From Pseudomonas baltica (GTDB lineage Bacteria; Pseudomonadota; Gammaproteobacteria; Pseudomonadales; Pseudomonadaceae): a stretch of DNA of 64,000 nt. The stretch spans positions 4,374,501 through 4,438,500 of the forward strand of contig NZ_CP134771.1 of assembly GCF_031880315.1 (NCBI RefSeq), written 5' to 3'. Positions 10,235-62,196 of the stretch are shown piece after piece. Below the pieces are notes generated by a model that worked only from the letters and a program-made list of their open reading frames with translations, was not told the DNA's origin and did no database searches. A program made the position numbers and the translations under genes. The first letter of the stretch is position 1. Every line of letters begins with the position of its first letter.

Positions 10235-10674
10235 GCAGTTGGCGCTCCGGCACAGGGGGTGAGCGCTGATCGCGTGCGTGGGCGCGGTTGGCACTGGGAG
10301 GATGACAATATGGGATTGTACAGGTATGCCTTGATTGATGCTGCGATTGGCGTTGAGGTTATTACCAGGCTGGCGTAGGGGCCTTACTAAATACGGGTGC
10401 GTTTGGGGCAGATTGCAGGGTTCGCAGAGTAAATGCAGAGGCAAGCGCATGGTCCCGCCGGTCTCCTTGGTGCTGGTCGGCATTTTTGTAGGCCGTCGCC
10501 TTTGTGAAACGTAACAGCTAATTCGTATCGCATGGCAGTGGTTCAACTGGCGAAATAGTCGCATCAGGATTTATGGTTTTGCTGCCCGGAGTTATGGAGC
10601 TGTCAGAGGTTTTCCTGTGGGCTTTGGGGGGGAGCTGTATGCGGGGTAGGCATATTGGCACGTGCTACTGTTTC
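10235..10674. other. 440-bp gap before the att-like site
   Basis: Apart from the unlikely 5' extension of the small minus-strand gene, I see no gene, terminator or repeat here. It probably contains that gene's promoter and old host DNA flanking the insertion. Confidence 0.4.
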
Positions 10675-10706
10675 GGTTGGGCCGGGGGGATTTGAACCCC
10701 CGTCCC
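10675..10706 (-). other. 3' fragment of a tmRNA/tRNA gene (att-like site)
   Basis: Read on the minus strand, GGGACGGGGGTTCAAATC continues into a perfect T-arm (GGGGG/CCCCC around TTCAAAT) and then CGGCCCAACC in place of an acceptor 3' end. No 5' half of a tRNA accompanies it, so it is a displaced 3' end as left by integration. From memory it resembles the 3' end of Pseudomonas tmRNA (ssrA), a common integration target. The gene body would then lie to the right, beyond the window. Confidence 0.55.
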
Positions 10707-10737
10707 TGACCCACTCCATAAGGCGTGCAGCCGGAAG

Positions 10738-10757
10738 GCTGTCATTTTGCTGTCATT
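10738..10757. repeat. Direct repeat pair GCTGTCATT (possible integrase arm sites)
   Basis: GCTGTCATT occurs twice with 11-bp periodicity, 32 bp from the tmRNA/tRNA fragment. On the minus strand it reads TGACAGCAAAATGACAGC, a layout resembling arm-type integrase sites. Confidence 0.5.
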
Positions 10758-11603
10758 CTAGGTCGATAGCTCGCCAGCCCCTACGAAATCTCCAGGTGGG
10801 GATTCTGAGAGGCTCACATACTCAAGCCGCCACTGGTCCACTTTGCGCAGATCGGCCAATGTCATAACCGTATCCGCTACTGCCGCGCAGCGCTCCAGAA
10901 TAATCGCACCACGATTTTCACCGGCCCCATAGGCATTGTGAAATAAATCGACCAACGCGGCAGCCGCGGCCTCCGCCGCCTCTCGAGCCGTTGGACCTCC
11001 GTCGTTTGCATCGTACAGAACGCTTATGGAGAGGAAGTAGGGGGTTTCTTCCCCTAATTCCTCTGTACGTTCTTCTCCGAGGTCAAAGAATACCCCGACC
11101 AAATGTTTCGCATGAGGCGTTACGATTTTTGTTATCTGTTTTTCAACGGGATTCTTTCCGACCAGCGTTCTGAGGCGTGTCTCAAACGAATTTGGGAAAG
11201 CAGGGCGGCCATAGCGTGCGGCTAACCATTGCTTGAAGGCTCTTTTCTGCTCGGAGTCTAGCGGTGACCCGGAGGCGCCTGTGGCACTCGCAATAAAGTC
11301 CTTTCGGGAGAGCGACCGTCTCCCTGAATGAGCTACCTCAATGTAAATCGGCCCATGATCCGTTGAAAACGTAAGATGAAGGCGCCGCGGGTTTCTAGCG
11401 TTCTCCAAGATGCCCTCTGGCTTATCTAGACCAATACCAATCAACACCTCAATGTCATTTTCGTGGTCGTTCGCCAGGTCACAGTCGTGTGTCGCCACGA
11501 CAACCTTGATATTTTCCGCCGCATCTAAAGCCAAGCCCAGCTTGAGAACGTGATCCTCGCTAAGCATTTGCCCTTGCCGCCATTCGGTATCACGTCCAAG
11601 CAT
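10758..11603 (-). CDS. Unknown protein, third gene of the TIGR04255-type cassette
   Basis: 281 aa, not recognised. It has a conserved-looking N-terminal segment VVVATHDCDLAND (about 34-46) with a His-Asp-Cys-Asp cluster, suggesting metal binding or catalysis. Basic RRLHLTF and HSGRRSLSRKDF segments follow, then an Ala-rich helix (AREAAEAAAAALVDLF) near the C-terminus. It is last in a tight minus-strand operon, 9 bp after the HTH gene stop. No signal peptide or membrane segment, so cytoplasmic. Inference: possible effector of an accessory or defence cassette. Confidence 0.6.
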   Translation of the reverse strand: MLGRDTEWRQGQMLSEDHVLKLGLALDAAENIKVVVATHDCDLANDHENDIEVLIGIGLDKPEGILENARNPRRLHLTFSTDHGPIYIEVAHSGRRSLSRKDFIASATGASGSPLDSEQKRAFKQWLAARYGRPAFPNSFETRLRTLVGKNPVEKQITKIVTPHAKHLVGVFFDLGEERTEELGEETPYFLSISVLYDANDGGPTAREAAEAAAAALVDLFHNAYGAGENRGAIILERCAAVADTVMTLADLRKVDQWRLEYVSLSESPPGDFVGAGELST

Positions 11604-11612
11604 CTTTATTAC

Positions 11613-12236
11613 CTACACTCGTTCGACGGCACCAGGAATGGACACATAGGTTTGCCACGAGTCAGAAGGCTTTGCCTTGGACTGCGGCAGACCGGACTTC
11701 GCATAATTTGTTTCCATTTTCCGCGCCTCAGTGATGAGAACAGAAATATGCTCTGAGCTATTGGTACCCAACCTCACTAGGTCAAGCAGGGAGCTTCCGT
11801 TAAACGCTTTCATTTTTACCAGGTTTCCGACTCGCTCGACCTGGGCGGACTTGAGCTCATCGGCGATGCGGCTTAGCGTCGCGAGTTTCGCCTGAGTTGC
11901 AGGCTCTGGCTCGGAGTCGCGGCTTATCCATTTGTAGATTGCCTGCCTAGAAACACCAAACACTGCCGAAAGATCCGCCATCGAGGGATTTAGGGTTTCT
12001 CGAATATTTTCGATGTGTGCCACCGGCGAGCGCACATCTATATGCTTATGCGGATCTTCTTTCGCGAGCGTAAAAGAAACCCGAGGCTTGACTGATTTCC
12101 ACCAGCTATCGGCCGCCGTGATCGGATAGGCGCTGCCTGTGCCAGTAACCAAAAGACTCATCACCGCCACTACAAGCTTGCTCTTGCTGCCGCTGGCTGA
12201 GGGTGAAAGGTAAGTAGAAGTCGGGCTTGCGTACAT
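11613..12236 (-). CDS. HTH protein of the three-gene cassette
   Basis: 207 aa from ATG 12236, chosen because AGGGGG ends 5 nt before it and it leaves 13 bp after the upstream stop. A helix-turn-helix lies at about 90-120: NPSMADLSAVFGVSRQAIYKWISRD. An N-terminal hydrophobic stretch (KLVVAVMSLLVTGTGSAY, about 19-36) could be a membrane anchor or buried helix, which is unusual for a DNA-binding protein. Middle gene of the operon. Either the regulator of the cassette or a membrane-tethered sensor. Confidence 0.65.
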   Translation of the reverse strand: MYASPTSTYLSPSASGSKSKLVVAVMSLLVTGTGSAYPITAADSWWKSVKPRVSFTLAKEDPHKHIDVRSPVAHIENIRETLNPSMADLSAVFGVSRQAIYKWISRDSEPEPATQAKLATLSRIADELKSAQVERVGNLVKMKAFNGSSLLDLVRLGTNSSEHISVLITEARKMETNYAKSGLPQSKAKPSDSWQTYVSIPGAVERV

Positions 12237-12249
12237 ATTTCCCCCTGAT

Positions 12250-13044
12250 TTAGGCCCAAACGCGATTGGCATGATCTGTAACGGTAGCAGCAAAGACTTG
12301 TTTAATTGCGGCGTGTAGATTTTTCATCTGCATTTCGATCGCTTCGAAATCAATTGGCATTTGCCCCGAGACGGAATGGTCGGTATCGATAACAGCATGA
12401 GTTATTTCCGGAGTCACGAATTTCGGCATCATGACTAAACCATGTGGTAGGAGATCTGGTGGAAACCCCACTACCCCACGAGCCTTGTAGACACGGCTCA
12501 GCAGCATCCCAGTGGGAACCAGAGGGCCGCATTCTGTATGGAAAACCGATTCCATCATGGACTGTAATCGTGGTGCGTCAAAATCCAATCCGTGTAGGCC
12601 GGGTGTTAGGTATTGCTCAATGCTTTCGCCTTCTGATGGCTGAACCGCATCTAGGTAGCGAAGGCCCACGCGACTCAGATGCGCCAGACCTACGACTTCG
12701 TGCACGGCTTTGAGCCCCATCAGGAGCGTAGGAATAAATTCCTGGCTCGTTTCGTAATGCGTCGTATGAAACGATAGAGAATTCGCGTTTAGGATGAAGC
12801 CTGAGCTTCGGTCCTGCTTTGTAAGCAGCCAGAGCGACGTCTGCGTAACCTGCGGTTCAGCGAACGCTGCTCCAGCCTCAGGAATCTGCAGCTGCATCTG
12901 TTGCTGCGGCTCGAACAGCGTGAACCCAACGCGTCGAAGCTGGTCCTGGATATCGACTACATATTTATGCATCGCCGGCACAGGATTGAATTGCGCTTGC
13001 GCTATCGCGTAGTAGACCGGGGCATTGGATAATTTGTCCGGCAC
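12250..13044 (-). CDS. TIGR04255-like protein
   Basis: 264 aa. The start LSNAPVYYAIAQAQFNPVPAMHKYV, then a LRRVGF element, and later GLAHLSRVGLRYLDAV match my memory of TIGR04255, a sporadically distributed family of unknown function that often starts with LSNAPV-like text and predicts as cytoplasmic beta-rich protein. First gene of the minus-strand trio, RBS AAGGAG. Its patchy occurrence, and its place between an att-like fragment and an integrase, fit a mobile accessory cassette. Confidence 0.72.
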   Translation of the reverse strand: MPDKLSNAPVYYAIAQAQFNPVPAMHKYVVDIQDQLRRVGFTLFEPQQQMQLQIPEAGAAFAEPQVTQTSLWLLTKQDRSSGFILNANSLSFHTTHYETSQEFIPTLLMGLKAVHEVVGLAHLSRVGLRYLDAVQPSEGESIEQYLTPGLHGLDFDAPRLQSMMESVFHTECGPLVPTGMLLSRVYKARGVVGFPPDLLPHGLVMMPKFVTPEITHAVIDTDHSVSGQMPIDFEAIEMQMKNLHAAIKQVFAATVTDHANRVWA

Positions 13045-13069
13045 CGTTGTGCTCCTTCGAATCGGGCTG

Positions 13070-13094
13070 GTTTACGTCTTGGTTTACAGTTTAC
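13070..13094. repeat. Three GTTTAC repeats beside the integrase 3' end
   Basis: GTTTAC at 13070-13075, 13082-13087 and 13089-13094, directly downstream of the integrase stop. Phage attP arm sites usually lie here, so the functional left attachment site may be at about 13.05 kb, not 10.7 kb. Confidence 0.45.
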
Positions 13095-13096
13095 AT

Positions 13097-14284
13097 CTAG
13101 GTTGTCGGCCTCACAACGCAATTCATTAGCTGAGTGTCGGCGGTTGCGAAAGCAATTTCAGCTTTCGAACCAGACGTCGAATGCTCATTTGGAAGCCATC
13201 GACCATACACTCTGGCGATCATCGTCCAATCCGTATGCCCCATCTGCTTCGCAACCCACATTGGGTGCTCGCCAGCGGATAGCATCATGGATGCGTAGGT
13301 ATGCCTGGTTTGGTAAGGCCGCCGATACCGAACACCCGCCTTCTTCATCGCCGGTACCCACATTGTCTTTCTGATCGGCTGATCACCAGTCCACCGCTCC
13401 CCTGTGCGCGGGTTCTGGAAGATCTCGCGATCGGCGAGGAACGTGTGCTCCTTCTGAGCTTTCAGTGCCTCAAGGGCAGGGCGCAGCAGTTTGACGCTCC
13501 GGCGCCCTGCGGATGTCTTGGGTACTTCGGCGATACCGCCTGATGCCTGGGTCATTGCCTTGGTGATCATCACCTCGCCGCGGAGCCAATCCACGTCGCC
13601 CCAGTCCAGGGCCACCAGCTCGCTGGTGCGCAGTCCTGTCCACAGCGCGAACTGCACCAGGTTACGGGCCTGACCTTGGAGGACACCCAGAATTGCGGCT
13701 TGTTCTTCGGGCGCGAATGGGTCGACGTCGTCTTCCTTCGGGGGCGCCTCTTTACGGGAGTAGGTCCAGCCAGCCAGCGGATTGAGCTCTATCAGCTCCT
13801 CCTCGCACGCGTCGTTCAGCGCCGAGCGCAAGCAGCTCTGGATGTTGCTCAACGTCTTGTTACCCACCAGCAGGGTGTCCAACCAGTCGCGGACGATCTT
13901 GCGCTTGAGGTCGACCAGCATGTGGTCGCCAAGGGCAGGGAGCAGGCGGAGCTCGACGATCTTTCGGTAGCCGTCGAAGCTGCTGCTCGCGAGGTGTTTC
14001 TTCTTGGCTGCCAGCCACCTAGTCAGGAAACCGTTAACTGTCTCCCGGCTCGCCTCTGGCGCGAATTGCGCAGCCCTGGGCGAGCCGGGGAAGGTCACCG
14101 CATAGTCGAAGGTCCCGATCGATATCGCGTGCTCGATCGCCGCCTTGTGCTGCTCTGCCTTTTTCAGATTAGTGGGGGAGGGCTTGAGCGTGATGCGCTC
14201 GCGGCACCGGACGCCCCGATACATGAACGTGATTTCGATGCTCGTATCGGAGACCGCCCGAACTCCCCGCCCGCCTCTACCCAT
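13097..14284 (-). CDS. int: Tyrosine site-specific integrase
   Basis: 395 aa. The N-terminal 60 residues (IEITFMYRGVRCRERI) are the DUF3596-type arm-binding domain. A SAM-like core-binding domain follows (80-165), then the catalytic domain: Arg219 in TGLRTSEL, Lys257 in VPKTSAG, Arg327 in YQTRHTY, His350 in QMGHTDW and Tyr360 in RVYGRW. The usual HxxR box reads YxxR, as is normal for this branch. It overlaps the excisionase gene by 121 bp in another frame, which ties their expression together. Confidence 0.95.
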   Translation of the reverse strand: MGRGGRGVRAVSDTSIEITFMYRGVRCRERITLKPSPTNLKKAEQHKAAIEHAISIGTFDYAVTFPGSPRAAQFAPEASRETVNGFLTRWLAAKKKHLASSSFDGYRKIVELRLLPALGDHMLVDLKRKIVRDWLDTLLVGNKTLSNIQSCLRSALNDACEEELIELNPLAGWTYSRKEAPPKEDDVDPFAPEEQAAILGVLQGQARNLVQFALWTGLRTSELVALDWGDVDWLRGEVMITKAMTQASGGIAEVPKTSAGRRSVKLLRPALEALKAQKEHTFLADREIFQNPRTGERWTGDQPIRKTMWVPAMKKAGVRYRRPYQTRHTYASMMLSAGEHPMWVAKQMGHTDWTMIARVYGRWLPNEHSTSGSKAEIAFATADTQLMNCVVRPTT

Positions 14285-16399: not shown

Positions 16400-16748
16400 C
16401 AGAAGGAAAGCAGTATGGTTAAGGCACTGAAGAAACCGGCAGAACGGATTGAGGTGAGCGGGGTTGAGCGGCTACGGCTCAGGGTGTCGAACATGATTAA
16501 TCACCCGATCGCCCAGGAACGGAAAAGCATAAAGATTCACCGCCTGGATTCAGACGGCGACCGCGAGTGGGAGGAGGTGATGGGGGCATTGTCGGAAGTC
16601 GATGGGATCGACATTACATTCAACGATGAGGACGAATCGGTCACGCTGAGCTGGGACGCGCCGTCAGACGACGGTAAGCGTCCAGCCCAGCCACCTATGA
16701 TTCCCCTCCGCCTCTCGCCACGCTGTGCCCTTCCACGAAGGAGCACAC

Positions 16749-17054
16749 ATGAAACCACCCGCCGGACTCACCGCACGGCGCGCATTCTGGGCCGAACATG
16801 TCCAGGCATGGCGCAACAGCGGCATGACCCAAGTTGCCTACTGCGAGCGGCACAAGATCAACACCAAATCATTTGGCTATTGGTTTCGAAGTCGCGAGCT
16901 GGAAAACGAGACCCTGACGATAGTGCCCATCGCCGTACGTGAAGTTGCCACGGCAAGCGAGCTGAAGCTAAGACATCCAAGCGGCTGGGAGCTGATATTG
17001 CCGTGCACGATAGATCCGGCGTGGCTGGCCCATCTGCTCCAGGAGATGCGCTGA
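16749..17054 (+). CDS. tnpA: IS66 accessory protein TnpA
   Basis: 101 aa: RRAFWAEHVQAWRNSGMTQVAYCERHKINTKSFGYW is the IS66 Orf1 helix-turn-helix type. Starts at ATG 16749 after GGAG. Ends in an ATG overlap with tnpB. Required with TnpB for transposition of this family. Confidence 0.92.
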   Translation: MKPPAGLTARRAFWAEHVQAWRNSGMTQVAYCERHKINTKSFGYWFRSRELENETLTIVPIAVREVATASELKLRHPSGWELILPCTIDPAWLAHLLQEMR

Positions 17055-17392
17055 TGCTATTGCCTGCACAGGTCTGGCTGATTCTTGAACCGATGGACAT
17101 GCGCCTTGGCATCGATGGTCTTTCGTCGCGCGTCCAACACGCGCTGGGAAGATCGCCGTGCGACGGCACCGCTTATGCTTTTCGTAATCGCCGAGGCAAC
17201 CGCCTCAAGCTTCTTCAATGGGACGGCACCGGTGTCTGGCTTAGCCAGCGCCGTCTGCATGAAGGCACTTTTGTATGGCCTGTCCCTGGCGAAACAGTCT
17301 TCACATTGACCCAGGCGCAATGGCAGTGGCTGATCACTGGCGTTGACTGGCAACGATTGGAAGCTCGTCCGATGAGTGACTGGAGAGTGTAG
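17054..17392 (+). CDS. tnpB: IS66 accessory protein TnpB
   Basis: 112 aa: VWLILEPMDMRLGIDGLSSRVQ and FRNRRGNRLKLLQWDGTGVWL are diagnostic IS66 Orf2 motifs. Start overlaps the tnpA stop (TGATG), indicating coupled translation. Intact. Confidence 0.94.
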   Translation: MLLPAQVWLILEPMDMRLGIDGLSSRVQHALGRSPCDGTAYAFRNRRGNRLKLLQWDGTGVWLSQRRLHEGTFVWPVPGETVFTLTQAQWQWLITGVDWQRLEARPMSDWRV

Positions 17393-17430
17393 AGAAATAC
17401 TCTTTCATATCGTTCGCAGATAACGATAGT

Positions 17431-17454
17431 GTGGATTTTTTCAGTAAAATCCAC
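17431..17454 (+). promoter_or_regulatory. Hairpin before tnpC start
   Basis: GTGGATTTT and AAAATCCAC form a 9-bp stem with a 6-nt loop, ending 2 nt before the tnpC ATG. It would bury the ribosome site in read-through transcripts and so limit transposase synthesis (inference). Confidence 0.55.
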
Positions 17455-17456
17455 GG

Positions 17457-18983
17457 ATGCCAGTCGCCGATGAAATCGCCGCCCTCAATCTTGATCCCGC
17501 CCTGCGGGAGAGGATCATGGCCGCGCTTTCACAGCAGGTCGATGTCGATAAGCTACGTGCCCAGGCTCAACATGACGCGTTGAAAATCCAGGCATTGACC
17601 CTCGAACTTGCTCATTACAAGCGTATTCGGTTCGGCGTCAGAAACGAGGCGTTGTCGCCCGAGCAGCGAGACTTATTTCAAGAAACCGCCGATGCCGACT
17701 GCGCCGCCATTGAAGTAGAAGTCGAGGCACTCGTGCCTCAACAGCGAGCGCAGCGCTCTCGCGCCGGCCGTCAACCACTGCCGGAACATCTGCCACGTAT
17801 TGAACATCGCCACAAGCCCGAGGCCTGCCGTTGCCCTGAATGCGGTGGTGAATGGGTAAAAGTGGGCGAAGACATCACCGAGCAACTGGATGTCGAGCCT
17901 GCCAAGTTCTTCGTGCATCGCCATATCCGTAGCAAATACGCCTGCCGACCCTGCGAACGTATTGTTTCAGCACAAGTGCCTCCCGCCATCATCGACGGCG
18001 GCCTGGCGGCTCCGGGACTGATTACCTGGGTGTTGATCAGCAAGTACCTCGATCATCTCCCGTTGTATCGCCTTGAACAGATCGCCCAGCGTGCGGGCGT
18101 CACACTGGCACGATCAACCTTGGCCGACTGGGTTGGCCGCTATGGATTTGCGCTGCAACCGCTGGCGGATCGATTGGCCGAGTTGTTGCGCCAACGCCTG
18201 ATCCTGCATGCTGACGAAACACCGGTACAGCAACTTGACCCTGGCAAAGGCAAAACCAAGCGAGCCTATTTGTGGGTTTATCGCAGTAACGACCTGGATC
18301 CCGGGCCGGGGATTACCGTATTTGATTACCAGACCGGGCGCAGCGGTGCGCATGCACGCGCTTTTCTGGATGACTGGAAAGGTCATTTGGTCGTTGACGA
18401 TTATGCGGGCTACAAAGCGCTATTTACTCAGGGCGTTACCGAAGTGGGTTGTATGGCACATGCACGGCGCAAGTTTTTTGAATTGCATGCGGCCAATCAA
18501 AGCGCGGTGGCTGCCGAGGCTTTACTACGGATCGCTCAATTGTACGAAATCGAATCACGGGGAAAAATGTTGACCTGTGATGCACGCAAACATCTGCGCA
18601 CCAGCGAGGCGCTGGCCAAGCTGCAAGACATGCATGAGTGGATGCTATCGACCCGCCAAGGGGTAGCGAACGGCAGCAGCTTGGCCAAGGCGATGGACTA
18701 CAGCCTCAAGCGCTGGGTGGCGTTGTCACGCTATGCCCGCAGCGGTGATTTACCTATCGATAACAACGCAGTTGAAAATGTGATCAGGCCTATAGCGGTG
18801 GGTAAGAAGAACTGGTTGTTTACTGGCTCTGAGCGAGCGGGATGCCGCGCAGCTGCGATCCAGAGCTTGCTGGCGACGGCGAAACTTAATGGGCTTGCCC
18901 CGTCGGCATGGCTGCGCGATACGTTGGAAAAGCTCCCGACATGGCCCAACAGCAGGATTGATGAGTTGTTGCCGTTGCGATGA
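17457..18983 (+). CDS. tnpC: IS66-family transposase TnpC
   Basis: 508 aa, full length. N-terminal leucine-rich helix, zinc-binding CRCPECGGEW...KYACRPCERI (about 124-165), then the DDE domain with Asp in LHADETPVQ, Asp in VVDDYAGYK and Glu in NNAVENVIRPI, plus the C-terminal TnpC tail AWLRDTLEKLPTWPNSRIDELLP. No stop or frameshift. Confidence 0.96.
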   Translation: MPVADEIAALNLDPALRERIMAALSQQVDVDKLRAQAQHDALKIQALTLELAHYKRIRFGVRNEALSPEQRDLFQETADADCAAIEVEVEALVPQQRAQRSRAGRQPLPEHLPRIEHRHKPEACRCPECGGEWVKVGEDITEQLDVEPAKFFVHRHIRSKYACRPCERIVSAQVPPAIIDGGLAAPGLITWVLISKYLDHLPLYRLEQIAQRAGVTLARSTLADWVGRYGFALQPLADRLAELLRQRLILHADETPVQQLDPGKGKTKRAYLWVYRSNDLDPGPGITVFDYQTGRSGAHARAFLDDWKGHLVVDDYAGYKALFTQGVTEVGCMAHARRKFFELHAANQSAVAAEALLRIAQLYEIESRGKMLTCDARKHLRTSEALAKLQDMHEWMLSTRQGVANGSSLAKAMDYSLKRWVALSRYARSGDLPIDNNAVENVIRPIAVGKKNWLFTGSERAGCRAAAIQSLLATAKLNGLAPSAWLRDTLEKLPTWPNSRIDELLPLR

Positions 18984-19201
18984 GCGGCTGTTTGCAAGGA
19001 GGCTGGGCTGGACGCTTACAGACGACGATCCGCGTGCCGAGATGCACGAGGAGTTCAATGCGCTGGATGAGCCAGCGCCTTTCTGACATGCACAAAAAAG
19101 CCCGCTCAGTGGCGGCCTGGCTCATCGCGTAGGGATTTCATTGGCTAGGTATTCTTTCTGCTTTCAGTGCTTTGCCAAGCGCCGTAGTTGCCAACCTGGG
19201 G

Positions 19202-19316
19202 ATTCCACGCGCACTTGGACACCCATTCCACGAACACTTGGACACCGATTCCACGCTGACTTGGACACTCACTCCACGGCCACTTGGACACTGATTCCAC
19301 GAGTACTTGGACAGTG
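19202..19316 (+). repeat. Five tandem 23-bp IS21 end repeats
   Basis: Units start at 19202, 19225, 19248, 19271 and 19294, each of the form ATTCCACG-N4-ACTTGGACA. They are transposase-binding end repeats of the IS, five copies being more than the usual two or three. Confidence 0.9.
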
Positions 19317-19407
19317 ATTTTCTACTGACCCACTCAAATCTCAGGCAGACAGCAACGCAGGTTTATTCACTACCATCGACCTCTTTTCTCGCAGCGAAGA
19401 GGTCGTC

Positions 19408-20936
19408 GTGGAGCGTATATCCATGCGTAAAATCCGAGAGGTACTACGCCTAAAGTTCGACGCCGGCCTGTCCGTGCGCAAGATCGCCGCCAGCCTGCGC
19501 ATCAGTAGCGGCAGTGCGGGCAACTACTTGCACCGCTTCAACGCCTGCGGACTGAGTTGGCCGACATCGTTGTCGGACGCCGAGTTGGAACGACGCTTGT
19601 TCCCGCCAACCCCAACAGTTCCAAGCGACCAAAGGCCGATGCCTGATTGGGCATGGGTACACGCCGAGTTGCGCCGCCCCGGCGTCACTCTGGCCTTGCT
19701 CTGGCAGGAATATCGACTCACGCACCCGCAAGGCTTCCAGTACAGCTGGTTCTGCGAGCACTACCGCCTCTGGGCCGCCAAGGTCGATGTGGTGATGCGC
19801 CAGGAACACCGTGCAGGCGAAAAGCTGTTCGTCGATTACGCCGGGCAGACCGTGCCGGTCATTGATCGGCGAACCGGCGAGATCCGCCAGGCGCAGATCT
19901 TCGTCGCCGTTCTCGGCGCGTCCAGCTACACCTTCGCCGAGCCACCTGGTCGCAGAAACTGCCCGACTGGCTGGGCTCGCACGTGCGCTGCTTCGCTTTT
20001 CTCGGGGGTACATCGCAGATCCTGGTGCCGGACAACCTACGCAGTGGCGTGACCAAAGCTCATCGCTACGAACCCGACATCAACCCCAGCTACCGCGACC
20101 TGGCCGAGCATTACGGCGTAGCCGTATTACCCGCTCGCTCGCGCAAGCCAAGGGACAAAGCCAAGGTCGAAGTCGGCGTCCAAGTCGTCGAGCGCTGGAT
20201 CCTGGCGGTGCTGCGCAACCGCCAGTTTTTTTCGCTCGGTGAACTCAATGCCGCCATCGCACTGCTGCTGGATCGCCTCAATCACAAGCCCTTCAAAAAG
20301 CTGCCCGGCTCACGCCGATCAGCCTTCGAGGCCCTCGACCAGCCGGCGCTGCAAGGGCTGCCGGAACACCCGTACGTCTATGCCGAATGGAAAAAAGTGC
20401 GCGTCCATATCGACTACCACGTCGAGGTCGATGGCCACTTCTACTCGGTGCCATACCAACTGGTGAAGCACCAACTCGAAGTACGGCTCACGGCTCAGAC
20501 GGTCGAGTGTTTCCACGCCAACCAACGCGTGGCCAGCCATCTGCGCTCGCTGCACAAGGGCCGGCACACCACCCAAACCGAGCACATGCCCAAGAGCCAC
20601 CGCGAGCACGCCGAATGGACTCCACAACGGTTGATCCGCTGGGCAGAGCAGACCGGGCCTAACACCGCTGGCGTCATCGCCTACATCCTCGAACGCCGAA
20701 TCCACCCACAGCACGGCTTCCGCGCCTGCCTGGGCATCCTGCGCCTGAGCAAACAGCACGGCGAAGCGCGGCTGGAAGCCGCGTGCCAGCGAGCGCTGGC
20801 ACTGGGCGCATGCAGCTACAAAAGCCTGGAATCGATCCTGCGCCAAAAGCTGGAGCGCCTGCCGCTGGCCCAGCAAAACCTGCCACTACTGCCCGACGAG
20901 CACATCAACCTACGTGGCCCGGGCTACTACCACTGA
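19408..20936 (+). pseudogene. istA: IS21 transposase IstA, frameshifted
   Basis: From GTG 19408: MRKIREVLRLKFDAG...SVRKIAASLRISSGSAG (HTH), then DDE-domain segments FVDYAGQTVPV. At about 19941 the text GAGCCACC lacks one G of the expected GAGGCCACC and the frame shifts. The second part resumes at about 19943 ([32 protein letters not shown]). Total 1529 nt, one short of 510 codons, consistent with a single-base deletion in a 509-aa protein. Confidence 0.9.
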
Positions 20937-20956
20937 CCTGAAAAAGGAGCTTCGAA

Positions 20957-21712
20957 ATGCTACCGAATCCAACGCTCGACAAGCTACAAACCCTGCGCCT
21001 GCACGGCATGATCAAGTCGCTGGGCGAGCAACACGCAACGCCCGATATCAATGATCTGAGCTTCGACGAACGCTTCGGTCTGATGGTCGATCGCGAGCTG
21101 ACCGAGCGCGAAGACGCCCGCCTGACCACTCGCCTCAAAGCCGCGCGACTGCGCCACAACGCCTGCCTGGAAGACATCGACTACCGCAGCCCACGTGGCC
21201 TGGACAAGGCCTTGATCCTGCAACTGGGCAGCGGCCAGTGGCTGCGCGATGGCCTGAACCTGATCATCGGCGGGCCAACTGGCGTAGGCAAAACCTGGCT
21301 CGCCTGCGCGCTGGCCCACAAGGCCTGCCGCGACGGCTACAGCGTCCGTTACCTGCGCCTGCCGCGCTTGATGGAGGAACTGGGCCTGGCCCATGGCGAC
21401 GGCCGCTTCGCCAAACTGATGGCTGGCTACGCCAAGACTGACCTGCTGATCTTGGACGACTGGGGCCTGGCACCGTTTACCGCCGCGCAACGGCGCGACA
21501 TGCTTGAACTGCTGGACGACCGCTACGGCAACCGCTCGACACTGGTTACCAGCCAGATGCCGGTGGACAAATGGCATGCGCTGATCGGCGATCCGACGTT
21601 GGGCGATGCGATCCTCGACCGTCTGGTGCACAACGCTTATCGAATCGAACTGAAGGGCGAATCGATGCGCAGGCGCGCAACGAAATTGACGGCGGCAGGG
21701 ACTTCAGACTAA
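20957..21712 (+). CDS. istB: IS21 helper ATPase IstB
   Basis: 251 aa AAA+ transposition helper. Walker A GPTGVGKTW (about 105-113), Walker B LLILDDWGL, sensor region LVTSQMPVDKWHALIGDPT. Starts at ATG 20957 after AAGGAG, 20 bp past the istA stop. Intact although its partner is frameshifted. Confidence 0.95.
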   Translation: MLPNPTLDKLQTLRLHGMIKSLGEQHATPDINDLSFDERFGLMVDRELTEREDARLTTRLKAARLRHNACLEDIDYRSPRGLDKALILQLGSGQWLRDGLNLIIGGPTGVGKTWLACALAHKACRDGYSVRYLRLPRLMEELGLAHGDGRFAKLMAGYAKTDLLILDDWGLAPFTAAQRRDMLELLDDRYGNRSTLVTSQMPVDKWHALIGDPTLGDAILDRLVHNAYRIELKGESMRRRATKLTAAGTSD

Positions 21713-26117: not shown

Positions 26118-26734
26118 AAATGACTGTTGAAAAAGCTCAGAAGATCGCCGACATCGCAGCCAAGCCGGGCTGCAGCGCCAGCACCCACTTCATCCTCATC
26201 CAGCACGTGACCCGCAACCTGTTGCGCCACCGCAAGGAGATTTTTTCTGAGCGTCGAGCGTTCCACCGCCAGGCGGCGAAGCTCAAGCCATACCTGCCAT
26301 TCGCCAGAAAGGCGATCGATGAGCTCAACGCGCGGGGCGACGGCCATCGCGCTCAAGAGTTGGAAGGTAACGACCATGTCCTAACGGGTATCGGCCATAT
26401 GCTAATGCGCGATCGCGAAGGGGCCTATGAGGCACTGGGGTTCGAAAAACTCTGTGACCTGCTCAGCATCAACCCGGTCCACCGGGCTGAGGCTAGGCTC
26501 CGCCAAGAAGAGCGCAGCCTGGCAGGGCTGATCTACGTCTCTCGCCTCGAGAACAGCGTGAGCCCGCGGCTCGACAACTGGGGCGATGGTGGACCGCTGT
26601 TCGAAGCCTGCTTCGCCACCTTGGTGGAGTGGTTGAAGACCGCGCCCAAAGAAGATCTCCCGGACCTCTTCGGCCCCGGGTCGCCGTTCGACGGCGTGCG
26701 GCTGGTTGAAGTCAAAGCGGAGACCCTGCAATGA
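26111..26734 (+). CDS. Phage early protein of unknown function
   Basis: 207 aa; overlaps its neighbours at both ends (7 and 4 bp). N-terminal helical region with RNLLRHRKEIFSERRAFHRQ is strongly basic, the C-terminus acidic (APKEDLPDLFGPGSPFDG). The HFILIQHVTRN segment and general place suggest DNA metabolism, but no family is recognised. Confidence 0.7.
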   Translation: MLKMTVEKAQKIADIAAKPGCSASTHFILIQHVTRNLLRHRKEIFSERRAFHRQAAKLKPYLPFARKAIDELNARGDGHRAQELEGNDHVLTGIGHMLMRDREGAYEALGFEKLCDLLSINPVHRAEARLRQEERSLAGLIYVSRLENSVSPRLDNWGDGGPLFEACFATLVEWLKTAPKEDLPDLFGPGSPFDGVRLVEVKAETLQ

Positions 26735-27222
26735 GCCTGGAATCAGTAGTTTGGGCGCTGGCGCAGACCAGTCTTGAGCCTATCGATAAGTTCGTCTTGA
26801 TGTGCATGTGTGACAGTGCGCAGGAAAACCAGGCGACGATCGCCGACGCCAGCATCGCTCGCTATACCAACTTGTCCGAAGATGAAGTGCTTCTGGCTGT
26901 CGAACGGCTGGTACGTCGAGGGCTTATCCGGCGACATGCCGTTGGACAGTACTTCCTCGCCATTCCGGTAGATCCGCCGTTGAAGCGGACATATCGCAAG
27001 AAAGTGATCAACTCGCGCATGCGTCTCGCGGTATTCGAGCGAGACGGCTACGCCTGCCTCCGCTGCAAAAGCCAGAAGGACCTCAGAGCAGATCACGTTT
27101 TTCCTGAAAGCTATGGGGGAGAAACTTCGCTGGGGAATCTCCAAACTCTTTGCGCCTTGTGCAACAGCTGGAAGGGCACCAAGACGATTGATTTCCGTAA
27201 GGTGCCGGAGGTATCCGCATGA
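26731..27222 (+). CDS. Winged-helix / HNH endonuclease protein
   Basis: 163 aa. Residues 1-80 resemble a winged helix (IARYTNLSEDEVLLAVERLVRRGLIRR). Residues 90-155 hold an HNH nuclease: VFERDGYACLRC, DHVFPESYGGETSLGNLQTLCALCN, with CxxC-type zinc ligands and the catalytic His of DHVFP. HNH proteins of this size occur in phage early regions and can act in replication, packaging or homing. Confidence 0.82.
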   Translation: MSLESVVWALAQTSLEPIDKFVLMCMCDSAQENQATIADASIARYTNLSEDEVLLAVERLVRRGLIRRHAVGQYFLAIPVDPPLKRTYRKKVINSRMRLAVFERDGYACLRCKSQKDLRADHVFPESYGGETSLGNLQTLCALCNSWKGTKTIDFRKVPEVSA

Positions 27223-35067: not shown

Positions 35068-36259
35068 GGATGGTCTGAAGTAGGCAGCTATTTCTCAACT
35101 GCTGAGCCATAGCGGTTTCAAAAAACGGCAGCCGTTCAAAATCGATCAAGTCTGCCGCTTATTTCATGCATTTTTTCCGCAGCAAGCACCTTGCAGCGGC
35201 TATTTCCCTCATTACGGGCGCACCTCTCCCGCGCCAGAAAGCAACTGTCGACGTGCCATCCACAGGTTCGACAGGGCGAACAACGTCACCATCTGAGCAG
35301 TGTTTTTCACCAAGCCTCGGAAGCGCACTTTCGTATAACCAAACTGACGCTTGATCACCCGAAATGGATGCTCAACCTTGGAGCGAACCTGAGCCTTGGC
35401 TCTCTCGATCTTGCGTATTGCTTTGTACAACACGCTGCGTTTTCCGTGCTTCTTGTAGGTGCTGCGCCGGGCTGCAACCTGCCAGATGACTTGGCGTCCA
35501 GCATGCTCTTTGCGCTTCTCGACACCGGTATAGCCTGCATCGGCGCAGACCACGTTCTCAGAACCGTGTAGCAGTTTGTCGACTTGGGTCACGTCCGCCA
35601 CGTTGGCCGCAGTGACCACCACGCTGTGCACCAGCCCCGAGTCATCGTCGACACCAATGTGCGCTTTGGCGCCGAAGTAATACTGGTTGCCCTTCTTCGT
35701 TTGGTGCATTTCCGGGTCGCGTTTACTGTCCTTGTTCTTTGTCGAAGTGGGCGCATGAATCAGCGTGGCATCGACGATGGTGCCTTGTCGCAGTGACAGG
35801 CCACGCTCGCCCAGATAGCCATTGATCACGCCGAGAATGCCAGTGGCCAACTCGTGTTTTTCCAGCAGGCGACGGAAGTTGAGAATGGTGGTTTCGTCCG
35901 GGATTCGCTCCAGGCTCAGGCCGGAAAACTGGCGCAAGATCGTCGTCTCGTACAGCGCCTCTTCCATCGCCGGATCACTGTAACCAAACCAGTTCTGCAT
36001 GAGATGAACCCGCAGCATCGCCATCAACGGATACGCCGGACGACCGCCTTCGCCCTTCGGGTAATGGGGTTCGATCAGAGCGATCAAACCCTTCCAGGGC
36101 ACGACCCGATCCATCTCGATCAGGAACAATTCCTTACGGGTCTGCTTGCGCTTACCGGCGTACTCGGCGTCGGCGAAGGTCATTTGCTTCATCATCGAAA
36201 AGCTCGGCGATTGGTGTCCGGGGATTCTGCCAAATCAGGAAGTCTTTTTCAGAATTTCC
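35068..36259 (-). mobile_element. IS5-family insertion sequence, complete
   Basis: 1192 bp; imperfect ends GGATGGTCTGAAGTAG and (complement) GGAAATTCTGAAAAAG. Flanked by TTAA at 35064-35067 and 36260-36263, the 4-bp duplication of IS5 elements. One full transposase gene. Confidence 0.9.
35212..36195 (-). CDS. IS5-family transposase
   Basis: 327 aa. N-terminal DUF772-type domain (MTFADAEYAGKRKQTRKELF, YPLMAMLRVHLMQNWFGYSD), then DDE: Asp in GTIVDATLIHAP, Asp in VVCADAGYTG, Glu in VRSKVEHPFRVIKRQFG, with the IS5-typical YREK-like helix. Uninterrupted. Confidence 0.96.
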   Translation of the reverse strand: MMKQMTFADAEYAGKRKQTRKELFLIEMDRVVPWKGLIALIEPHYPKGEGGRPAYPLMAMLRVHLMQNWFGYSDPAMEEALYETTILRQFSGLSLERIPDETTILNFRRLLEKHELATGILGVINGYLGERGLSLRQGTIVDATLIHAPTSTKNKDSKRDPEMHQTKKGNQYYFGAKAHIGVDDDSGLVHSVVVTAANVADVTQVDKLLHGSENVVCADAGYTGVEKRKEHAGRQVIWQVAARRSTYKKHGKRSVLYKAIRKIERAKAQVRSKVEHPFRVIKRQFGYTKVRFRGLVKNTAQMVTLFALSNLWMARRQLLSGAGEVRP

Positions 36260-61251: not shown

Positions 61252-62196
61252 CTATAGCTGATCAAGATCGATTTTTGATCTCGCGAAAAGTTGCTCATGA
61301 TGCTGCGCAAGCACATGTTGATTGTAAGCGGACGCTCGCTCAGGTGTGATGAAGGAAGTATAGCTGCCGGACCTACCATTGCCTTTGTCGATCAGTATTG
61401 CCTTGCTAGGTGTAATTGGATAATAAACTGCGTATTCATCCGGAATATCGAACCTATCCAGTCCCGTGCCAAATAAATTGAACGCTGGCTGGTCTGATGT
61501 GATAAATCTGGTGGAAGTTTCATTTAGTAGTAGCGTTATTTCGAATCGAGAATTAAATATATTGCTGGCTATATTGGTGGCTAGCATATGCCTCAGAGGG
61601 TTCCATATCTTCATGAGGCTGTCACTGTGCGCGGGCATTTTTTCAATAGTCATTTCCGAAAGATTTTGCTGTATTTTTTTGGTCCGTAATAGCTGCAAGG
61701 AAATGAATTGCAGGAAATTAAGACGGCTCGACGGGTCGTGCCAGAACTCGAACGTCTCCGATTTTAGGTCTTCTAAATAGTCAACTGACTTAGATTCTAT
61801 GTCCGAATGTAACTCTTCTTCCAAATTGTTTATCATTACGTCGAAGGTCTTTTTTGCAAGAGCGTTACCCTCTTCCGTCGCTCCATTAATTTCTGAAAAT
61901 AGTTTAATTGTCTCCTGAGCGGAATGCGGCAAAGAAAATAGCTCTACTATCTTTCGGTGGATGTCTTTAAGGTCTTCTGATACTTGGAACTTATTTATGC
62001 ATTCGTTTAAAAGAGCAATCTCTATTTTGCCTAGCTTATGTATTTTATAAAAATTACGCTGCTGGGCTACGTCTTTAATGTTTGACTGATAATATTTATT
62101 CGAGCGCTTGCACCATACTAGGTCTTCGACAGCCCATGCTGATAAGTAATAACGCCATACATAATGTTGCTTGTGCTTCATGTTCTCATAAGACAT
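61252..62196 (-). CDS. DUF4238 protein, AT-rich cargo gene
   Basis: 314 aa. KHKQHYVWRYYLSAWAVEDLVW at the N-terminus and TSTRFITSDQPAFNLFG plus YYPITPSKAILI later define DUF4238. RBS GGAG before ATG 62196. AT-rich codon use unlike neighbours, minus strand, at the phage end: typical lysogenic cargo. DUF4238 proteins have no known reaction; several occur in prophage accessory loci. Confidence 0.85.
   Translation of the reverse strand: MSYENMKHKQHYVWRYYLSAWAVEDLVWCKRSNKYYQSNIKDVAQQRNFYKIHKLGKIEIALLNECINKFQVSEDLKDIHRKIVELFSLPHSAQETIKLFSEINGATEEGNALAKKTFDVMINNLEEELHSDIESKSVDYLEDLKSETFEFWHDPSSRLNFLQFISLQLLRTKKIQQNLSEMTIEKMPAHSDSLMKIWNPLRHMLATNIASNIFNSRFEITLLLNETSTRFITSDQPAFNLFGTGLDRFDIPDEYAVYYPITPSKAILIDKGNGRSGSYTSFITPERASAYNQHVLAQHHEQLFARSKIDLDQL

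Follow-up and report, generated by a model that had tools for sequence, protein, structure and literature searches.

The window analysed here, a stretch of 64,000 nucleotides of Pseudomonas baltica (contig NZ_CP134771.1, positions 4,374,501 to 4,438,500), was found to carry a cassette of three genes, here called A, B and C, the first of which encodes a protein of the TIGR04255 family. The same three genes, in the same order, were found on prophages, plasmids and viral contigs of distant bacteria, which bears out the proposal of a first-pass annotation, made from the sequence alone, that they form a mobile unit. The favoured explanation, in which we place about even confidence, is that the cassette is a mobile, autoregulated, toxin-antitoxin-like anti-phage module. 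An anti-phage role taken by itself is rather likely, and the mode of defence would probably be abortive infection. The features of the cassette, in coordinates of the window, are as follows.

12250..13044, minus strand: gene A, TIGR04255 family protein, 264 aa, GTG start (NCBIfam match, E 6.9e-44)
11613..12236, minus strand: gene B, helix-turn-helix (HTH) protein with a hydrophobic N-terminal stretch, 207 aa from ATG (weak HTH_3 match)
10758..11603, minus strand: gene C, 281 aa, residues ~3-135 with a predicted MazF/CcdB-like fold, followed by a C-terminal alpha/beta part
13069..13107, minus strand: operator-like direct repeat of four boxes, preceding gene A and reaching into the final codons of the integrase gene

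The open reading frames (ORFs) of the window agree with the tight minus-strand operon described earlier, with gaps of 13 bp between A and B and 9 bp between B and C. A chance run of ORFs at 10758-13044 was excluded by the conservation of the three-gene unit across loci, and the cassette is therefore a genuine gene unit. A search with gene C alone returned seven genome contigs together with eight plasmid and two phage records, of which eight of the ten records (all save H7 and H9) were opened; A-B-C was present in the same order and on the same strand in all seven contigs and all eight opened records. The search with gene A gave 12 plasmid records, 11 of which (all save H17) were opened, seven of them being already counted from the gene C search, and A-B-C was found in each of the 11, with B and C weak in two rhizobial copies (E 3e-6 to 6e-11). 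Searches of IMG/VR with gene C and gene A yielded 27 and 46 loci, respectively, corresponding to 50 unique contigs, and 45 of these carry A-B-C in order; the contigs are partly near-identical, so that these counts are not independent. Four of the five exceptions are cut by the contig end (L033, L063, L098, and L099) and the fifth, L059, is a lone C-like ORF. The hosts named in the records include Pseudomonas, Klebsiella, Acinetobacter, Vibrio, Robbsia, Rhizobium, Mesorhizobium, Meiothermus, and Gloeocapsa, a spread which reaches Deinococcota and Cyanobacteria, and the labels of metagenome-assembled genomes add Nitrospirae and Chloroflexi.

Among 398 genomes sampled across phyla, gene C was found in eight and TIGR04255 in 30, with seven of the eight gene C genomes also having TIGR04255 (hypergeometric P 5e-8, assuming the same 398 genomes in both searches). 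The TIGR04255 gene is adjacent in six of the eight, and in G085 the genes are split between two contig ends. Over 52 loci the protein distances of A, B, and C were correlated at r 0.96-0.97 (reached in 0 of 1000 permutations), values which are inflated by common descent. The cassette is a cohesive group inside the wider TIGR04255 family. The co-occurrence of the three families proposed at first was upheld, gene C being accompanied by A and B at every locus of sufficient length, save in L059 and one genome, G057.

It is the genomic location of the cassette that suggests a role in defence. All three opened copies from Escherichia coli are flanked by genes of a P2-like prophage, the replication endonuclease/DinI genes on one side and the portal gene on the other; this interval, from replication gene A to portal gene Q, is the one that defines P2 hotspot cargo. 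A P2-type portal gene directly follows gene C, in convergent orientation, in 25 of the 50 unique viral contigs, 21 of which have the replication gene upstream. In the available part of Rousset et al. (PMC9122126), this interval is described as a hotspot rich in anti-phage systems, and the part of Vassallo et al. (PMC9519451) at hand also reports encountering it. Cassettes at least 99% identical to an opened copy were found in 18 of 5426 E. coli genomes, and a more distant search gave 19 genomes, one with a divergent copy; the cassette is thus rare in this species. Around 21 other copies, names of the PADLOC database were obtained (E ≤ 1e-10) for AbiE, a type I specificity subunit, Septu PtuA, retron I-A, RmrA, and a ZorD-like protein, each in one or two ORFs, in a tally of 110 ORFs of 160-900 aa (best 25 of 352 matched models) made without a background control. 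In L002, an AbiEi gene lies ~1.7 kb upstream of gene A. The putative phage defence function put forward in the first-pass annotation gains from the P2 hotspot location and from these uncontrolled neighbour counts.

Gene A is preceded by a four-box direct repeat (TGTMAACC-N4-TGTAAACT...), the TGTMAAC boxes of which recur upstream of gene A at a 12-bp spacing from E. coli to Meiothermus. Of 73 regions preceding A genes of the cassette type (L098 and L099 being contigs that end after A), 51 contain the fixed pattern; it was seen in none of 13 regions upstream of other TIGR04255 genes (two loci counted twice; genes within reach of the A profile), and 500 shuffles of each upstream region gave it in at most 0.2%. 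When all viral contigs were searched with TGTCAACCN4TGTAAACT alone, 50 stretches were obtained, 37 of them with a TIGR04255 gene no more than 200 nt downstream. The other 13 comprise two that are too short to tell and 11 without gene A downstream, at least three of which (L195, L202, and L230) lie inside long ORFs. Two viral stretches with the TGTCAACC-N4-TGTAAACT pattern and similar adjoining boxes, L207 6594-6613 and L226 165-184, have no TIGR04255 gene downstream. Within the window the full four-box form has a single match, at 13069-13107 on the minus strand, compared with none in 100 shuffles. The strict two-box pattern had no site in the host genome, since the outer boxes of the window copy carry C in place of T. 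A relaxed two-box form was found at two places, the cassette's own and one other, and the latter may be due to chance, as a reversed control pattern matched five times. No sigma-70 promoter directly upstream of gene A was among the three promoter-like sites found in 10600-13300.

Gene B would be the natural reader of this repeat. The earlier description of an HTH protein with a hydrophobic N-terminus holds for gene B, which matches HTH_3 at E 3e-4 (21.2 bits, slightly below the curated cut-off of 23) and has a best 17-residue hydrophobicity mean of 1.68. The HTH_3 model was matched by 30 of 32 aligned B proteins (E ≤ 0.1), and a hydrophobic N-terminal stretch (17-residue mean ≥ 1.6) was seen in 18 of the 32, the remaining 14 falling below this value. 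The role of regulator which had been assigned to it is supported indirectly, by the conserved repeat upstream of gene A, to which the protein would bind. An MbcA/ParS-type antitoxin was also considered for gene B; the MbcA match reached only E 0.033 and was not used.

TIGR04255 is an orphan family, named, according to the first-pass annotation, for its sporadic distribution. Gene A, at first called TIGR04255-like, is a clear member, with 150.6 bits against the NCBIfam cut-off of 30 and a match spanning model positions 1-249 of 252. All 26 aligned cassette A proteins match the model (E ≤ 1), and the residues invariant among them include R37, Y97, R125, G127, R129, E165, R184, D220, and D222. 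Conservation of R184 and E165 does not extend to 22 other aligned members of the family, whose loci have no recognised B and C, and the family is broader than the cassette (30 vs. 8 of the 398 genomes, counting gene C). The structure predicted for gene A (pLDDT 90.9) is a duplicated beta-alpha-beta-alpha fold, the nearest to it among the Foldseek matches listed being guanido kinases and TBP. A SecB-like chaperone identity was set aside, there being no SecB among the Foldseek matches listed, which is no proof of absence. TIGR04255 genes outside the cassette group were seen at L143-L145 (G058, G356, and G302); those at L143 and L144 precede other uncharacterised ORFs (~150-230 aa), hinting at additional operons built on TIGR04255.

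At E ≤ 1, gene C matched nothing in Pfam, NCBIfam, or PADLOC, and its best PHROG was phrog_34320, of unknown function (E 0.0038 for the window copy and 2e-6 for the L069 copy). The HDCD cluster noted earlier in this 281-aa protein is at residues 39-42, of which C41 and D42 alone are invariant among relatives; the conserved residues also include W8, Q10, G11, R73, W126, Y131, and R133. On the basis of structure prediction and Foldseek comparison, the N-terminal half (residues ~3-135) is predicted to have a MazF/CcdB toxin fold without MazF sequence similarity. The assignment of the third protein as effector gains from this predicted fold and finds no support in the sequence. Plain membership of the MazF/PemK family (PF02452) was ruled out on sequence by profile searches and hhalign, and the target of gene C is probably not the usual MazF RNA site, because its conserved residues are its own. 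A housekeeping or phage structural identity, which the first-pass annotation had named as speaking against its own proposal, was not found: no such family was matched, and at the P2 site the genes lie beside, not among, the structural genes. In the gene C copy of a Meiothermus plasmid (L010 4968-5789), translation from the usual start region meets an in-frame stop close to the N-terminus, and this copy may therefore be broken or start later.

According to the favoured explanation, gene B would bind the four direct repeats upstream of gene A and repress the operon and, alone or with A, would keep gene C silent. Gene C would be the effector, with its MazF/Kid/CcdB-type N-terminal fold and its own conserved residues. 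Gene A, which has two repeats of a beta-alpha-beta-alpha unit and a set of conserved Arg and Asp residues, may read a phage-made signal (a protein or a nucleotide-like ligand) and, on that signal, would release gene C, with abortive infection as the putative outcome.

Several observations weigh against this explanation. No Foldseek match of gene C was at E 1e-3 or better, and unrelated proteins stand high in its list, with a secretion needle protein at rank 4. Comparison of gene C with the MazF profile gave an hhalign probability of 0.2, with similar values (0.1 and 0.3) in the comparisons with A5 and A6; PemK (PF02452) is absent from the 13 families matched by 31 gene C members (E ≤ 1); and the MazF-conserved R-P and T (columns R24, P25, and T46, taken from 17 MazF sequences) have no conserved counterpart in gene C when judged by eye. 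The exact repeat pattern is missing in 22 of the 73 cassette upstream regions, namely L004 and L007 (variants by eye), L045 (a cut region), L054, L089, L122, and distant groups, these being the Acinetobacter-type L014, L015, L057, L058, L101, and L102, Gloeocapsa, Vibrio, rhizobia, and five of the sampled genomes. In G057 (L139 6280-7784) a B-C pair occurs without a detectable A, the only such case among the eight genomes, and gene A may therefore be dispensable. The window copy lies outside the P2 hotspot, in a different phage and there at the integrase-attachment end, the tally of defence neighbours has no background against which to be read, and the P2 hotspot holds non-defence genes too, including a partition system and a toxin (PMC9122126, in the part available). 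No phenotype for the cassette was found in the literature consulted.

The upstream repeats suggesting autoregulation, the MazF/CcdB-like fold of gene C, and the presence of the cassette on both plasmids and prophages would also be expected of an addiction (toxin-antitoxin) module that merely stabilises these elements and has no anti-phage role. This is judged unlikely, as the copies of P2-like phages occupy precisely the variable hotspot of defence genes, a set of three genes that includes a large A exceeds the needs of addiction, and other copies lie among defence genes (in the tally without control). It is very improbable that the cassette is a regulatory or superinfection-immunity "moron", in which B represses related phages, A and C modulate B, and no toxin is involved. 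Gene B does resemble phage regulators (phrog_8, E 9.3e-16, for the L069 copy) and the window cassette adjoins an integrase; however, the repeat is mostly found upstream of the cassette's own gene A (37 of the 50 viral stretches), its relaxed two-box form occurs at just one other place in the host genome (against five for the reversed control), and the cassette occurs on plasmids too.

Another reading is that the cassette is identical to the published "3HP" system of the P2 hotspot, so that defence would already be validated; in the accessible part of its description (PMC9122126), 3HP protects against P1. By that description each is a set of three genes lacking clear domains, and the two share the same site in the phage. 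Gene B, however, has a recognisable HTH, and in PADLOC-DB 2.0.0 the cassette proteins of the window, two E. coli copies, and one Klebsiella copy had no 3HP match, with no family for A and C and weak HTH matches for B, although 3HP is listed, with DUF4238, in a PADLOC-made table of PMC10855318. This silence is weak evidence, because PADLOC 2.0.0 likewise failed to name the clear DUF4238 protein of the window in spite of that listing. Identity with 3HP is considered quite improbable. No mention of TIGR04255 was found in the literature searched, and papers on tripartite toxin-antitoxin systems, MazF-like proteins, and the P2 hotspot, mostly judged by titles and abstracts, gave no description of the cassette.

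If the cassette is a toxin-antitoxin-like defence with a third control protein, its nearest counterparts would be the toxin-antitoxin-chaperone (TAC) systems and PD-lambda-2, by analogy of working and not of sequence. As presented in the available part of PMC9519451, CmdTAC and MqsRAC share with it three genes, a toxin-like effector, an antitoxin-like partner, and a third control protein, but gene A is not recognised as a SecB-like chaperone. PD-lambda-2 of the same source similarly has three components, one of them an Xre HTH protein, and toxin-antitoxin-like abortive infection, whereas its HigB-like toxin and HTH-peptidase fusion are not recognised in the cassette. With MazF/Kid/CcdB (type II toxin-antitoxin), the cassette shares the fold predicted for gene C and an antitoxin-like gene directly upstream of it, and differs in the absence of sequence similarity, MazF residues not retained by eye, an extension of ~150 aa, and the third gene A.

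The four-box repeat upstream of gene A and the predicted MazF/CcdB fold of gene C are new here. Tentatively, and with more doubt than confidence, the cassette may represent an undescribed class of anti-phage system, in which a TIGR04255 sensor with a guanido-kinase/TBP-like double fold and a conserved Arg/Asp site would detect a phage-made signal and trigger an effector of MazF/CcdB fold, the MazF chemistry of which would have been lost and a new invariant Cys-Asp site acquired, and a possibly membrane-anchored HTH antitoxin would read the four-box repeat. If true, this would be the first function for TIGR04255, and a tripartite toxin-antitoxin-like defence, unnamed in the PADLOC 2.0.0 scan, would be added to those known, one that is carried by P2-like prophages of E. 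coli. The orphan family is here placed in a defined three-gene system which is widely mobile and has its own recognisable control element in the DNA, and the repeat pattern and the three profiles provide a ready search model for the cassette.

The element carrying the window copy is delimited by the following features.

10681..10705, strand not applicable: attachment-site core, 25-bp copy of the ssrA 3' end, at the cassette-proximal end of the prophage
13097..14284, minus strand: tyrosine integrase of the carrier prophage (Arm-DNA-bind_2 E 1.1e-20, Phage_integrase E 1.2e-15, phrog_1 E 1e-60)

The "att-like fragment" reported beside the cassette contains this exact 25-bp copy of the 3' end of ssrA (tmRNA), with the identical bases also present in the intact gene at genome position 4439634-4440033, ~54.46 kb away. 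On the basis of these paired ends, the carrier is an element of ~54.46 kb inserted in ssrA, running from window position 10681 to genome position 4439641 and extending ~1.1 kb past the window. It encodes a repressor-like protein with HTH and S24 peptidase domains, DnaB helicase, GpA terminase, a lambda-type portal, a capsid E protein, and a PhageMin_Tail protein, and these genes identify it as a prophage. The cassette is its outermost cargo, with the integrase on one side and the attachment site on the other. Near the opposite end, window 61252-62196 (minus strand) encodes the DUF4238 protein mentioned above (Pfam E 7.7e-22); the prophage may carry a second defence gene here, because a DUF4238 protein of the P2 hotspot gives protection against T7 (PMC9122126, in the part available). 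Transposase-like genes lie within the prophage at 16725-21712 and 35212-36195; they comprise genes which we take to be IS66-like and IS21-like, and a DDE_Tnp_1 transposase. A 163-aa protein encoded at 26731-27222 (plus strand) has a C-terminal part weakly matching DpdF and type II restriction models (PADLOC E 1.6e-6 and 4e-6).
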